DNA from: Colius striatus
Lineage: Eukaryota > Chordata > Aves > Coliiformes > Coliidae
Assembly: GCF_028858725.1 (NCBI RefSeq)
Contig: NC_084763.1
Location: 52,026,152-52,090,151, forward strand
DNA: 64,000 nucleotides
Reading direction: 5' to 3'
Under the pieces are notes generated by a model. The model made no database searches and had not been told where the DNA came from. It worked only from the letters and a program-made list of their open reading frames with translations. The position numbers and the translations under genes are program-made. Below, piece by piece: positions 6,181 to 52,780 of the stretch (its first letter is position 1; every line of letters begins with the position of its first letter).

Positions 6181-8299
6181 ACAGGAGGGACAGTCACAGA
6201 GTCCTAATTCAATATTGACTGCAATGAACCTTCTGTGTCTATTTGGAATTTTAGGAGATGTACTGCTTGGAGTCACAAGCTTCTTGGAGTCAGACCTCTG
6301 CCCATCCCATGCCCTTCCCCACCAGTCAGCCCCATGGACACACTCTGTGCCCATGGGCACCTCCATGATCTATCCTGCCTAGAGGTGGCCCTGCAGGACC
6401 CATTGGTCTCGGACTGGGTTTGGATTTAAGCCTGGGAAGCCACAACCTTGTAGCTCCTGTCTTATCCCTCCAACAGGCCACCAACCACCTTGACTGGGCA
6501 GCTGCTCTGAGAGACTCCATCTCGATCACTCAGATACACGTGACAGGAGCAGGCTCTGACCTGTGCTGGTGGCATGAGCAGATTGCCTGAGTTCTTGGCA
6601 CAGGGACATTATTTCCTGACTTCTGCTATATTTCCCTTTTAAAAATACCTGATAAACAGACACATTTTGTAAGCACATGACAGGATTAGCTAAATATCCT
6701 TTCCAAGTCCATAGATTCCTTGCTTCTTCTTGGCCATGCAAAACCTCAAAAGCATGTGAGTGAGTGTCCCATCCCCATGGCCACCAACCACTGGGCCCAT
6801 CACCAACAGCAGCAGTGCTGGTGCAGACAGCAGGTTCCTCTGGAGCAGCTCCCCACCACAGACATACCAGTACCCACAGGAATGCTTTTGAAAATCATCT
6901 TTCTTTAACCTGTTTTTTAAAGATGGTCCAAAATACAGCTTGCAGGTATTTAAAATAGTGTTCTTGAAGTTAACACTTGTTTTTCAAAAGCTTGGCATCC
7001 AGCTGTGCACTTCACTCATACCTAAGTGCCCTCTCATAGATTGAGTTAAGGCTGAGAGTTTTGACTGTATCTTTTATTTTTCTCTCACTTTAAGGAGTGA
7101 GCACAGAGGAATATTGGGGATGTGTCTATTGAAGCATCAAAACAAAAACCCACACAAAGAATAAATTGGACATATTAGGAAAGGAAATATTGAAAAACCT
7201 GTGCCCAGAGGCACCTCCCAACAACTGAAGGAACCTGTCCAGGGCCCAGAATCCCTCAGTTGTTTAATGAAGTGAAAGAGTTTCACTGGATTCAGTCATT
7301 TCTTTACAGGATAATCCATAAAAGCAGCTATAAAGTCATCTTGTCCATGTCCACCACTTAGTAGGTGGACTGATAGTCAGCGCTGTAGTTATGAGTAGAA
7401 AACTCAAAACACTTGTCCACTCTATTCCACTTGTCTGCCGTTAAGAAATGATAGCGCACAGAGATCCACCTTGAAGAATGGCAAAAGGAAGTGTGCAACA
7501 CTGAGAGCTGAAGTTTTGCCACAGTATTTACTCTCTTCCTTGTTTAAAGATGATAAAACCGAACACCTAAAAACATCTATGCTTTCCATTGTATAGCATC
7601 CACTGCAGTTGATTTTTATGTACTCAGGGAGAGTTTTCTCACAGTCCGGTGTTTGCATCTATTGACTTTGTAATCTGTAGACAGACTCTTAATGAGCAGA
7701 AAGGACAAGTATCTCAGAGATAAAACCTTGGAATAACAGTGAGCCTTTACAGCTTGTCAGGGAGAGAAAGCTCAAACATAAATATCTGATTTACAGAAGT
7801 AACACAACTTATTTTGATAGATTACATTGTTTCTGTTTCAAATTACTCTGTCAATCGTGGAAGAAGAGGTTAAGAGGTCATATTTTCTTTTAAAAAAATG
7901 CTTGAAAGGGCTCTTTCAAGGGATTTTTCATAATTTTCAACCACATATTCAATGACTTATTTGTGATGGTGGATCAGCTCTACTTTGCCAGTCCAATAAG
8001 CTGATTTTGTTCAATGTTGTTTTATGAATCCCCTCAACTAGTCAGGAACAGGATCAGCAGACTGCAGTGTGGTGATTTGCCCCACACAGTAGCTCCTGGC
8101 AGGACCTCATCACATTTTTGTTTCCAGTTTGTTCTTTTTTTCTCTGTTGGGTGAGGTGTTGCTGTTTGGAGCTGCGCTACTGAGAGTAGAGGATGCAGAA
8201 AATGACATGGGCTTTTGAAGCAGAAGCGAGGCCGAGGTTCAGGCCCACCTGGATTGAAACAGTAGTTACCCAACAAGAGATAGGGAGAGAGATGGCTTA
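6181..8299. other. Intergenic, no gene seen
   Basis: Mixed-composition sequence with short overlapping frames on both strands, none of which I recognise. It forms the left boundary of the GC-rich PTF1A domain. Confidence 0.45.
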
Positions 8300-18626: not shown

Positions 18627-18646
18627 CACGGGAAAATCAGCACCTG
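18627..18646. promoter_or_regulatory. PTF1-like composite site: CACGGGAA-N6-CACCTG
   Basis: An RBPJ/TC-box-like CACGGGAA (18627-18634) and a perfect CACCTG E-box (18641-18646) are 14 bp apart start to start. This is exactly the spacing found in both copies of the upstream module at 27.2 and 28.0 kb. The PTF1 trimer binds an E-box plus a TC-box about one helical turn apart. The TC-box half is one base off the usual RBPJ consensus. The site lies about 1.2 kb beyond the PTF1A stop codon. Confidence 0.4.
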
Positions 18647-19876: not shown

Positions 19877-20796
19877 TCACGCCACGAAGTCGAAGGGGGG
19901 CTCGTTCTCGATGTCGTTGCGGGACGGCTGCTTGTTCACCTTCCGTGGATCCTCGGGGGTCCATACTTTGGCTGTCCTGATGATGTTTTGTTCCTTGAGC
20001 TGCTTTTCGTCAGTCCACGACAGCGAGTGACCGGCCAGAGGGGGGAGTCCGTAGTCGGGGTCGCTCGGGGAGGGAGATCCTGGGGGACAGGGGGGAGAAA
20101 GGCAGGGAGTTATTGCTGGGTCCGGCATTCCTGCGGAGCGCGGAGCCGGGCCGGGGCGGACCGCCACTTACTTGTGCCGCGGTGGCAGATGATGATTTTC
20201 TTGGGCTGGCTGGGGCTCTCGCTGCCCGCGCTGCGCAGCGGCAGGTCGGACTGCACCAGCTCGCTGAGGAAGTTGATGTAGCCGATGGCCAGGCGCAGCG
20301 TGTCCACCTTGGAGAGCCGCTTCTCGTAGGGCAGGGTGGGGATGTGCGAGCGCAGCCCCTCGAAGGCGTCGTTGATGGACTGCATCCGCCGCCGCTCCCG
20401 CACGTTGGCGGCCTGACGGAGCTGCTGCAGCTCCGCCTCGGAGCGCACCCGCCGCCGCCGCTTGGCCGAGCCCAGCGCCTGGAGCCGCCCCCCGGGGGAG
20501 AGCAGAGCCGCCCCCGCCGCTCCGCAGCACTCGTAGGCGAAGCCGGGCGAGGCGGGCGACGGCGGGAAGGCGGCGGCCGGCGCCGGGCAGCGGTAGCCGC
20601 CGTCGGACTCGCCGCCGTCGCGGTAGTACTCCTGCAGCTGCCGGCTGAGGAAGTCCACGTCCGGCTCCAGCAGCCCGTCGGCGGCCAGACCGTCCCGCGG
20701 GGGCGGCTCGGGGAAGAAGTCCTCCTCGTCGAAATAGGGGGGTGACGAGAAGGAGTCCAGCCCCCCGGGGAAGTGTTCCAGTAGCACCGTCTCCAT
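19877..20796 (-). CDS. PTF1A: PTF1A, pancreas transcription factor 1 subunit alpha (complete, 2 exons)
   Basis: Spliced CDS is the complement of join(19877..20079, 20172..20796): 828 nt, 275 residues. PTF1A is a nuclear bHLH activator that joins an E-protein and RBPJ or RBPJL in the PTF1 complex, which drives pancreatic progenitor and acinar fate and GABAergic fate in cerebellum, retina and dorsal spinal cord. The N-terminus [14 protein letters not shown] and acidic YFDEEDFF match mammalian PTF1A. The bHLH spans about residues 127-182, with the basic motif [15 protein letters not shown] and helix 2 [19 protein letters not shown]. The exon-2 tail holds LSWTDEKQ and [10 protein letters not shown], whose tryptophans are in the family's RBPJ-contact boxes, and ends [11 protein letters not shown]. 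The start has a strong context (A at -3, G at +4). At 275 residues it is about 50 shorter than mammalian orthologues; the loss lies in the Ala/Pro/Gly-rich linkers on either side of the bHLH. Confidence 0.97.
20080..20171 (-). other. PTF1A: PTF1A intron 1 (92 bp)
   Basis: The donor GTAAGT follows codons for CHRGT (20166-20171 on plus reads ACTTAC). The acceptor is a C/T-rich tract ending CCCCCAG just before GATCTCCC. Splicing splits an Arg codon as A|GA and joins ICHRGT to [11 protein letters not shown], the junction seen in mammalian PTF1A. The intron is very short. Confidence 0.95.
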
Positions 20797-26460: not shown

Positions 26461-27154
26461 GGTGATAAACTTCTACGCCACTTTCCTGCTCTGCAGGTGA
26501 GGGGAGGAGAGCCGCAAGGCTCGCTCGGGATGGGGGTCAGGGTGTCCCTCCGTGCGCCTGGCACCGGGCAGGTCTGTGCGCTGCCAGACACCGTAGGACG
26601 GAAACCGTTTGCGGGGACGTCTGCGGGAGCTCTTTTGCGTCCCGTGGGCCAGGGAAAAGCCCATCAGCCCTCTCTGCCTCCGGGCTGTGCTCCATGGCAC
26701 TCCCGGCTCCCGGAGGCAGGTTGCCGGGACTCGTGCGGCCCCGCGGGCGGTGCGGAGGGAGTAGAGCTGGCTACCGTCGCCGAGCTGCGGCGAGCCCGTC
26801 CCTTCTCCCGCCGCCGAGCGAGGCACATAAATTGGGCACTCGCCCCTCCTCCCTTCTCCGCGCCGCTGCCAGGGCGAGCGCGGCGCGGCGGGACGGCGGC
26901 CCCACAAAGGCAGCGGCGCGGCCCCGGGCCCTCGCACGCCCGGCGGCGGAGGCGGCACCTGCAGCCGGGGTCGTCCCGGCTGCGCGCCCTCCCCTCCGAG
27001 CTGGTACCTGGGCGCTGGGCCGGTAATGCACCATAAAGAGCCTCCTTTCAGGCTCTTTCAAGCCGAGATCGCGAGGTCACCGTGTCTACAAACCCCCCTC
27101 TGTCGGCCGCGCCGGCCGGGGTGCCAACGCGGCAAGCTGGAGAACAGGCACAGC
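26461..27154. promoter_or_regulatory. CpG-island block with inverted repeat
   Basis: GC-rich block leading to the duplicated module. At 27035-27058 it has an inverted repeat with arms AAAGAGCC and GGCTCTTT around an 8-nt loop (a ninth T-A pair can close inside). The same arm sequences form the inverted repeat at 18110-18134. Confidence 0.45.
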
Positions 27155-27292
27155 CCATGGGAATCCCAACACTTGTGCCGCCGGCTCCCCCGGCCCGCCC
27201 TGCTCCCCCCTCCCCCGGCCCGAGGAGCCGCTGAATGTAACAAATGAGCTGCAATCGATCTGCGGGCACGGGGGAAAATCAAATTATATGGT
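27155..27292. promoter_or_regulatory. Duplicated PTF1-type enhancer module, copy A
   Basis: CATGGGAA at 27156-27163 fits the RBPJ consensus and is followed 14 bp on by the E-box CACTTG (27170-27175). TGCAATCG at 27250-27257 and AAATCAAATTATATGGT at 27276-27292 follow. All four elements recur in the same order in copy B (28014-28163), with the first pair and the last pair at identical spacing. RBPJ site plus E-box is the composite site of the PTF1 complex. The mouse upstream PTF1A autoregulatory enhancer is, from memory, described with two PTF1 sites. Copy A sits about 6.2 kb upstream of the predicted start. Enhancer function is inference. Confidence 0.6.
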
Positions 27293-28013
27293 GCGGCTGG
27301 GCGGCCGCGGCCGGCCAAAGGTGCGGGCGAGCGGCGGGCGGGCGGAGAGCGGCTGCCCCAGCCGGAGCGTTCTCCGCGCAGCGGAGGAGCCGTCGGCCCC
27401 GCTCCCGCCGAGCCCGGGCCCGCTCGGCTTCGCCTCCCGCTCTGTGGAGGGGTCCGAACTGCGCCGGCTGTGCCCCGGCTGGAGGTGGCCGGCTGCGGGG
27501 GGCTCGCCCCGGTCCCGCTAAAAGCGTCTCCGCCGGCCGGTGCCTCCCTTGCCCCGAGGCGCCCGGCAGCCGCCCGGCCTCGCCGCCGGCTTGCGCGCAG
27601 GTTGCGCGGCGTGCGGAGGCGCGACCAGCTACAGCAAAGCATCTGGGGTGCACGGGACGGGAGCAACTCCAGCAAGGTCGTGCATCAATGGTCTTTCCTC
27701 CCCTTCTGGTGCCGCCTTCAGGTCTCCTACCCGAGCTCCTCGGGTTGGCGGCGGGCAGCGGCCCCGTCCCGGCATCAGTGCCGCCGGGCCTGCCCCGTGT
27801 CTGCGAAGCACAGAGACGCACCGGCCTGGCCAGAGGATAGACGGTCACCCGCTAGCCGGGCTAGGCCAGGCCCATCAGCACCTGCCCGAAGCGTGGGAGG
27901 CGGGGGGTCGGACGACGAGCTCGTACCTGAGCCCTTTTTCTCGCCCCCCAGACGCGTGTGGGGACGGCTCCGCTTGGGAACAACTCCGTGCGGGGCCGGC
28001 GCTGCCGGCGGGT
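27293..28013. promoter_or_regulatory. CpG-rich spacer between module copies A and B
   Basis: GC-rich sequence separating the two module copies. Open frames of 180-205 codons here are composition artefacts. I saw no further copy of the 17-mer. Confidence 0.45.
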
Positions 28014-28163
28014 CCATGGGAATCTGACCACTTGCGCCGGCGCCGCCGGGAGGGGGCTGTGCTGCCTTTACAAAAAGAGACACAATTAAGCAAAATGCTC
28101 AATGAACATTATAAATGATGTGCAATCGCCTCGCAGATTGCTTAGCAAATCAAATTATATGGT
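28014..28163. promoter_or_regulatory. Duplicated PTF1-type enhancer module, copy B
   Basis: CATGGGAA at 28015-28022, E-box CACTTG at 28029-28034, TGCAATCG at 28121-28128 and AAATCAAATTATATGGT at 28147-28163. The RBPJ-like site to E-box offset (14) and the TGCAATCG to 17-mer offset (26) equal those in copy A; the distance between the two pairs is 106 bp here and 94 bp in copy A. Between TGCAATCG and the 17-mer this copy has a C/EBP- or MAF-like palindrome TTGCTTAGCAA (28139-28149) that copy A lacks. About 7 kb upstream of the predicted start. Confidence 0.6.
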
Positions 28164-28560
28164 TGCTCACGGATGATTTCCATGTGCTTTAAAAGGCAAA
28201 CAGGTACTTTCTGATTTGGGAGGGGTGTTGTTGGTGTTGGGGTTTTTTTTTCCTAAACAAAACAAAACACAACAACAACAAAAAAAAGCACAGCCCTTTA
28301 AACATTGCAGAGCAATGCCACATGCTGAAAGGAGGCTGTGTGAATATTCACGTTCTCCTTTGTTCGCCCCTCTATTTCACAATGGCCCGGGGAGGGCACA
28401 TCCACTGCATTCTTGTAAATTTACCAATCCTTGACTAAAACCGCCAGGCACCTGCTTGGCAAAGCACAAAGCTGCCCGCGTTTCCACCAACAATTTACTG
28501 TTTCATCGGCTTCTAAACTGGCCAGACAACAGAGGAACTCAAAGCTAATATCATTTAAAT
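28164..28560. promoter_or_regulatory. Candidate enhancer extension with E-box/TC-box pair
   Basis: AT-rich continuation of copy B. A CACCTG E-box at 28449-28454 and TTTCCACC at 28481-28488 are 32 bp apart, about three helical turns, which could be a wider-spaced PTF1-type pair. A poly-T/poly-A/CAA-rich patch lies at 28240-28290. No gene seen. Confidence 0.3.
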
Positions 28561-52445: not shown

Positions 52446-52710
52446 GCCCAGCATAAATTACTCCAGGATTTGAAATGCTTTGAGAAATTTAAAGTGAATT
52501 TAAATTTGAGTGAAGACGTGAATTCAAGGAGAAATGGATATTTTGCAATCACTCCTTGATAGAAAATTCTGCTCTGTGATTGGGCCACCTGTTCAGCTAG
52601 ATTTCACCCACTTTGAAATGCAGACCTCCACTCTGGGGTAGAGTGAGTGTATCTGCAGGGGCAGCTGTTGGGAAGCAACAACTCCAGGCTATTTCCCATG
52701 GATCCCCTAT

Positions 52711-52780
52711 ACCATACCATACCATACCATACCATACCATACCATACCATACCATACCATACCATACCATACCATACCAT
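52711..52780. repeat. (ACCAT)14 pentanucleotide microsatellite
   Basis: Fourteen perfect tandem copies of ACCAT, 70 bp, with no interruption. It makes both strands open (GMVWY-type repeats on minus, IPYHT-type on plus), which explains frames of about 105 codons here that are not genes. Confidence 0.98.

Follow-up and report, generated by a model that had tools for sequence, protein, structure and literature searches.

What are the two similar non-coding modules that lie upstream of PTF1A in Colius striatus, and why do they agree so closely at some bases and only at random levels at others? We analyzed a window of 64 kb (C7:52026152-52090151) from the 1.21-Gb genome (191 contigs), and all positions given below are those of the window unless a contig is named. 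The presumed target gene lies on the minus strand at 19877..20796, with its start codon at 20796, a bHLH exon that is open to 20110 and a second exon with its stop codon at 19877. The bHLH domain was recognized by Pfam (HLH, E 2e-21), and the best match of this sequence among solved structures was TWIST1. The N- and C-terminal peptides are encoded on the minus strand as well, the C-terminal one in the second exon, and from its likeness to the PTF1A protein sequence we take the gene to be PTF1A. Because the gene is on the minus strand, the modules, whose distance from the start codon is 6,359-7,367 bp, lie upstream of it, where the preliminary description of this DNA had placed them.

The two copies of the module span 27155-28163, and their elements follow one order: CCATGGGAATC, CACTTG, TGCAATCG and the 17-mer AAATCAAATTATATGGT. 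These start at 27155, 27170, 27250 and 27276 in copy 1 and at 28014, 28029, 28121 and 28147 in copy 2. The first half of each module is a candidate PTF1-like composite site on the minus strand (27155..27175 in copy 1, 28014..28034 in copy 2). The remaining elements, for which no strand is given, are TGCAATCG (27250..27257 and 28121..28128) and the 17-mer (27276..27292 and 28147..28163). The offset from CATGGGAA to CACTTG is 14 bp in both copies and that from TGCAATCG to the 17-mer is 26 bp in both, while the copies are unequal by 12 bp in the linker that joins their halves (inter-copy offset of 859 vs. 871), giving present module lengths of 138 and 150 bp. The collinear arrangement of four elements that had been described, including both internal offsets, was thus recovered in full. 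The common start of the copies, originally given as 8 bp, is present and measures 11 bp (CCATGGGAATC). Absent from the earlier list of elements is TGAA-N6-AAATGA, an additional common stretch that sits before TGCAATCG in register in both copies (27232..27247 and 28103..28118).

The twin module is real, statistically strong and locus-specific. The local alignment score of its two arms was 27.1, compared to a mean of 11.1 (sd 1.7) and a maximum of 22.1 in shuffles of 50-bp blocks, and none of 2,000 shuffles reached 27.1. The margin is smaller against real sequence, where the best unrelated tiles of the window, both GC-rich, scored 23.2 with arm 1 and 22.3 with arm 2. In genome-wide exact counts, for which parts of the genome were masked as N and very common words were skipped, the 17-mer had two matches, and these were the twin copies. 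The same was true of CCATGGGAATC-N4-CACTTG and of TGCAATCG-N12..24-AAATCAAATTA, with two genome matches each, both in the twin.

When compared position by position, the copies agree at 18/21 positions of the first half, 8/8 of TGCAATCG and 17/17 of the 17-mer. Identity falls to 4/18 in the 18-bp spacer between TGCAATCG and the 17-mer (4.4 expected), to 16/60 in the 60 bp before the module (18.8 expected) and to 7/40 in the 40 bp after it (9.1 expected). With gaps allowed, the sequence linking the E-box to TGAA is identical at 28 positions, compared to 28.6 on average in shuffles. The claim that the intervening sequence had diverged freely therefore describes the spacer, flanks and gapped linker well, but not the stretch directly before TGCAATCG, where 15 of 30 bases are identical (7.9 expected) and where TGAA-N6-AAATGA is found. 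Identity in the 30 bp following the E-box was 16/30, compared to 10.7 expected. In a gapped alignment of all sequence between the outer blocks, 67 bases were identical and 31 mismatched, with 36 gap positions; shuffles averaged 60.9 identities and reached 67 in 13 of 500 cases, an excess that goes with the short common elements inside.

In the orientation that points to PTF1A, both copies have CAAGTG-N5-ATTCCCATGG as their first half. PTF1 sites consist of an E-box and a TTTCCC TC-box separated by one or two helical turns (PMC2586380 and PMC4880809). In the twin, the E-box lies at 27170-27175 and the TC/RBPJ box at 27159-27164 in copy 1, and at 28029-28034 and 28018-28023 in copy 2, all on the minus strand. 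The centers of the two boxes are 11 bp apart in both copies, and the E-box, CAAGTG in each, is of the CANNTG form found in PTF1 composite sites. The TC-box, ATTCCC, has one mismatch to TTTCCC, with the RBPJ core TGGGAA intact. The one-turn spacing fits the composite-site geometry proposed for the module. CAAGTG is not known as a usual or preferred E-box of PTF1A. In the PTF1 sites of acinar enzyme promoters, the E-box is likewise separated from the TC-box by one helical turn (PMC2586380, PMC4880809), whereas the twin has ATTCCC rather than TTTCCC, CAAGTG as its E-box and a fixed, AT-rich second element.

How much weight the first half can bear depends on its pairing. With both strands of the window considered, TGGGAA-N4..8-CANNTG pairs occur only in the two copies of the twin, where simple arithmetic predicts about 0.6 for the window; with the shorter core TTCCC, the window has seven one-turn candidates (N3-8, twin included) and five two-turn candidates. 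Taken by itself, CATGGGAA-N6-CACTTG has 28 genome matches, compared to three for its reversed control, so that the PTF1-like half without its pairing is weak evidence. The window's only strict CANNTG-N5-TTTCCC site, CAGGTG-CTGAT-TTTCCC, lies outside the twin on the minus strand (18630-18646), 1.2 kb downstream of the PTF1A stop codon. As a 17-mer, this site occurs three times in the genome, the other two occurrences being 19 kb apart on contig C1.

The second half of the module, TGAA..AAATGA..TGCAATCG..AAATCAAATTATATGGT, is AT-rich with fixed internal spacing. It contains a homeodomain-type core, TAATTT, on the minus strand at 27281 and 28152, together with an ATCAAA core similar to TCF or TALE sites. 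No match to WWCAAAG, TGATNNAT, TGACAG, CArG or octamer motifs was found in this half, and ATCGAT, an ONECUT-like motif, occurs in copy 1 at 27254 and is missing from copy 2. A general role of this half as the suggested, undescribed co-factor module was not supported: when up to one mismatch is allowed, the genome has 26 matches to the 17-mer vs. 34 to its reversed control, so that the 17-mer is not enriched elsewhere and can be discarded as a genome-wide motif. Moreover, TGCAATCG stands beside AAATCAAATTA nowhere in the genome but in the twin copies. The second half thus looks locus-specific rather than like a recurrent motif, and is perhaps a compound of several contacts. A literature text search with 14-base pieces of the 17-mer, which covered running text apart from figures, supplements and most subscription papers, returned one cyanobacterial paper that we take as a chance hit, and scans of prokaryotic and viral sequence collections with the second-half pattern gave no matches.

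With regard to possible partners, PTF1A-PBX2 motif pairs with a fixed 12-bp spacing occur in conserved endoderm elements of human and zebrafish (PMC7619044). The likeness lies in a bHLH site that keeps a constant distance to a homeodomain-type site, but in the twin the 17-mer lies ~100-120 bp from the E-box and the linker differs by 12 bp between copies. The PBX consensus, TGATNNAT, was not found in 27100-28520. Three Fox-like TGTTTR matches were found in this interval, near copy 2 only. About 140-190 bp past copy 2, there is an inverted repeat, CATTGC-AGA-GCAATG (28303-28317), and a perfect palindrome, GTGAATATTCAC (28340-28351), and this stretch, in which an RBPJ-like TGTGTGAA starts at 28337, could be part of the same element.

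A described element that resembles the twin is the mouse Ptf1a upstream enhancer. In mouse, an autoregulatory enhancer of 2.3 kb, described as highly conserved, is located 13.4-15.6 kb upstream of Ptf1a (PMC3578747), with two PTF1A ChIP sites that each comprise an E-box and a TC-box, and motif perturbation abolishes its activity in chick and mouse reporters (PMC5576485). The enhancer is reported to be active in every neural domain of Ptf1a (PMC5580440) as well as in acinar and central nervous tissue (PMC9426562); for its E1-E2 region, the latter report cites the same work, namely Masui 2008 and Meredith 2009. The autoregulatory enhancer with two PTF1 sites to which the preliminary description appealed is thus documented (PMC3578747; PMC5576485). 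Both the mouse element and the twin lie 5′ of PTF1A and have two sites with an E-box and a TC-type box, and in the bird these PTF1-type sites fall within ~2.3 kb, as pairs 859 bp apart. The twin is 6.4-7.4 kb upstream, compared to 13.4-15.6 kb in mouse. A shorter distance is plausible in a smaller genome, and we do not regard absolute distance as defining across genome sizes. The mouse element is also bound by FOXA2 and GATA4 (PMC10553828); in contrast, the GATA consensus WGATAR is absent from 27100-28520. In the literature text searched, which excludes the original Masui 2008 and Meredith 2009 papers, no statement was found that the mouse sites are duplicated modules with a common second half. 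Two CRISPR guides bordering the downstream PTF1A enhancer of mouse gave no matches at up to three mismatches.

Taken together, the interval is probably the avian form of the autoregulatory enhancer known upstream of mouse Ptf1a, and would go back to an old duplication within the element that selection has preserved. The retained short blocks, the upstream location and the spacing support in part what was first proposed for this DNA, namely selection on binding sites of a PTF1 enhancer after duplication; protein binding, enhancer activity and orthology to the mouse element are predictions. According to this scheme, an old tandem duplication of one module would have produced both PTF1-like sites, and CAAGTG-N5-ATTCCCA in each copy would be occupied by a trimer of PTF1A, an E-protein and RBPJ (or RBPJL). 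Trimer binding may then sustain PTF1A transcription in the neural tube and pancreas. Selection would have retained the PTF1-like half and the AT-rich half with their internal spacing while the linker and flanks decayed, and one or several partners of the homeodomain type probably dock at the second half. If the copies are duplicates, their unconstrained bases are at saturation, which at avian neutral rates corresponds to well over 100 million years; the retained blocks would then have been under selection in both copies. Gene conversion could hardly keep 17 bp identical beside random neighbors. An ancient duplication, if it occurred, predicts that both copies will be present in other amniotes.

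Other explanations have to be weighed against a duplicated autoregulatory enhancer, and one is that two GC-rich stretches with AT-rich islands resemble each other by chance. In its favor, when two-block chains were sought with loose settings, 13 of 100 block shuffles of the window contained one, and exact pairs reached a length of 17 among the shuffles, which makes this a weak test. At up to three mismatches the window contains the 17-mer twice, and at least two matches were also present in 4 of 100 shuffles; unrelated real tiles scored as high as 23.2. Chance is nonetheless the least credible account of the twin, given that no arm shuffle among 2,000 attained the observed score and that four ordered elements with two fixed internal spacings are involved, whose exact blocks occur twice in the genome and both times here. 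It is also very improbable that the copies derive from a transposable element, or from a local duplication or conversion that selection did not keep. Such an origin has in its favor that local chains are no rarity: in a background sample of 20 stretches of 10 kb, taken at arbitrary round positions of the same genome, chains of at least 27 matching bases were found in 4. A whole-genome BLAST search with each copy as the query found only the query itself and missed the known twin. A search that is blind to its own twin rules out close copies only, and diverged copies elsewhere could have escaped it. However, similarity continues between the blocks in all four control chains (contiguous in two, and 13/15 and 40/52 aligned bases in the others), whereas the twin linker is at the level of shuffled sequence, and the exact blocks occur only at the twin genome-wide. 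A dispersed repeat is therefore unlikely, and is ruled out for the exact blocks, each with two genome matches, both at this locus.

The copies could also be conserved duplicates with another function, such as an alternative promoter, a silencer or a non-coding RNA. The region is GC-rich (71% GC in 27001-28000) and sequence alone does not disclose activity, yet the PTF1A start codon is more than 6 kb away, no Rfam family reached its gathering score in the window and not one of the six reading frames stays open through both copies, which also dismisses a protein-coding origin; we consider this explanation improbable. Somewhat better placed, though still unlikely, is a duplicated and selected PTF1A enhancer that is not PTF1-autoregulatory, in which RBPJ would act on TGGGAA as a Notch effector and CACTTG/CAAGTG would be read by another bHLH protein or an NK2-class homeodomain protein. 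CAAGTG, an unusual E-box for PTF1A, resembles the NK2 consensus TNAAGTG. In addition, the TC-box is off by one base and the strict PTF1 site of the window is elsewhere, at 18630-18646. Against this stand the one-turn spacing, which is the same in both copies, and the two PTF1A-bound E-box/TC-box sites of the mouse upstream element (PMC5576485).

Returning to the duplicated autoregulatory enhancer, what is new about it would lie in the duplication and in the second half that both copies retained. A bolder version, which we hold only tentatively and consider doubtful, is that the PTF1A autoregulatory enhancer goes back to an ancient internal tandem duplication, with every PTF1 site coupled to a second, obligatory module that an unnamed partner recognizes, and that the two-site architecture in mouse is the same duplication. 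If so, the loop would fire only where PTF1 and the partner coincide. PTF1A levels matter for pancreas formation and the identity of inhibitory neurons, and their maintenance depends in part on an autoregulatory loop. A natural duplicate, which retained its two halves and little else, marks important bases without alignment of species; here it likely singles out the 17-mer and TGCAATCG as essential parts with no assigned protein, and it narrows an interval of 1 kb to a few mutants.

Several other repeats were observed in the course of this work. The control stretch C12:15000000-15009999 carries an ungapped local duplication (6364-6451 and 7272-7359 of that stretch, 908 bp apart), with 40 of 52 bases identical between its exact blocks. 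In the window itself, two CR1-like tails, repeats of a kind that fits a bird or other sauropsid, lie in direct orientation at 1112-1162 and 2228-2278, another repeat pair is located at 443 and 55982, and a perfect (ATACC) tandem array of 14.4 copies occupies 52709-52780.
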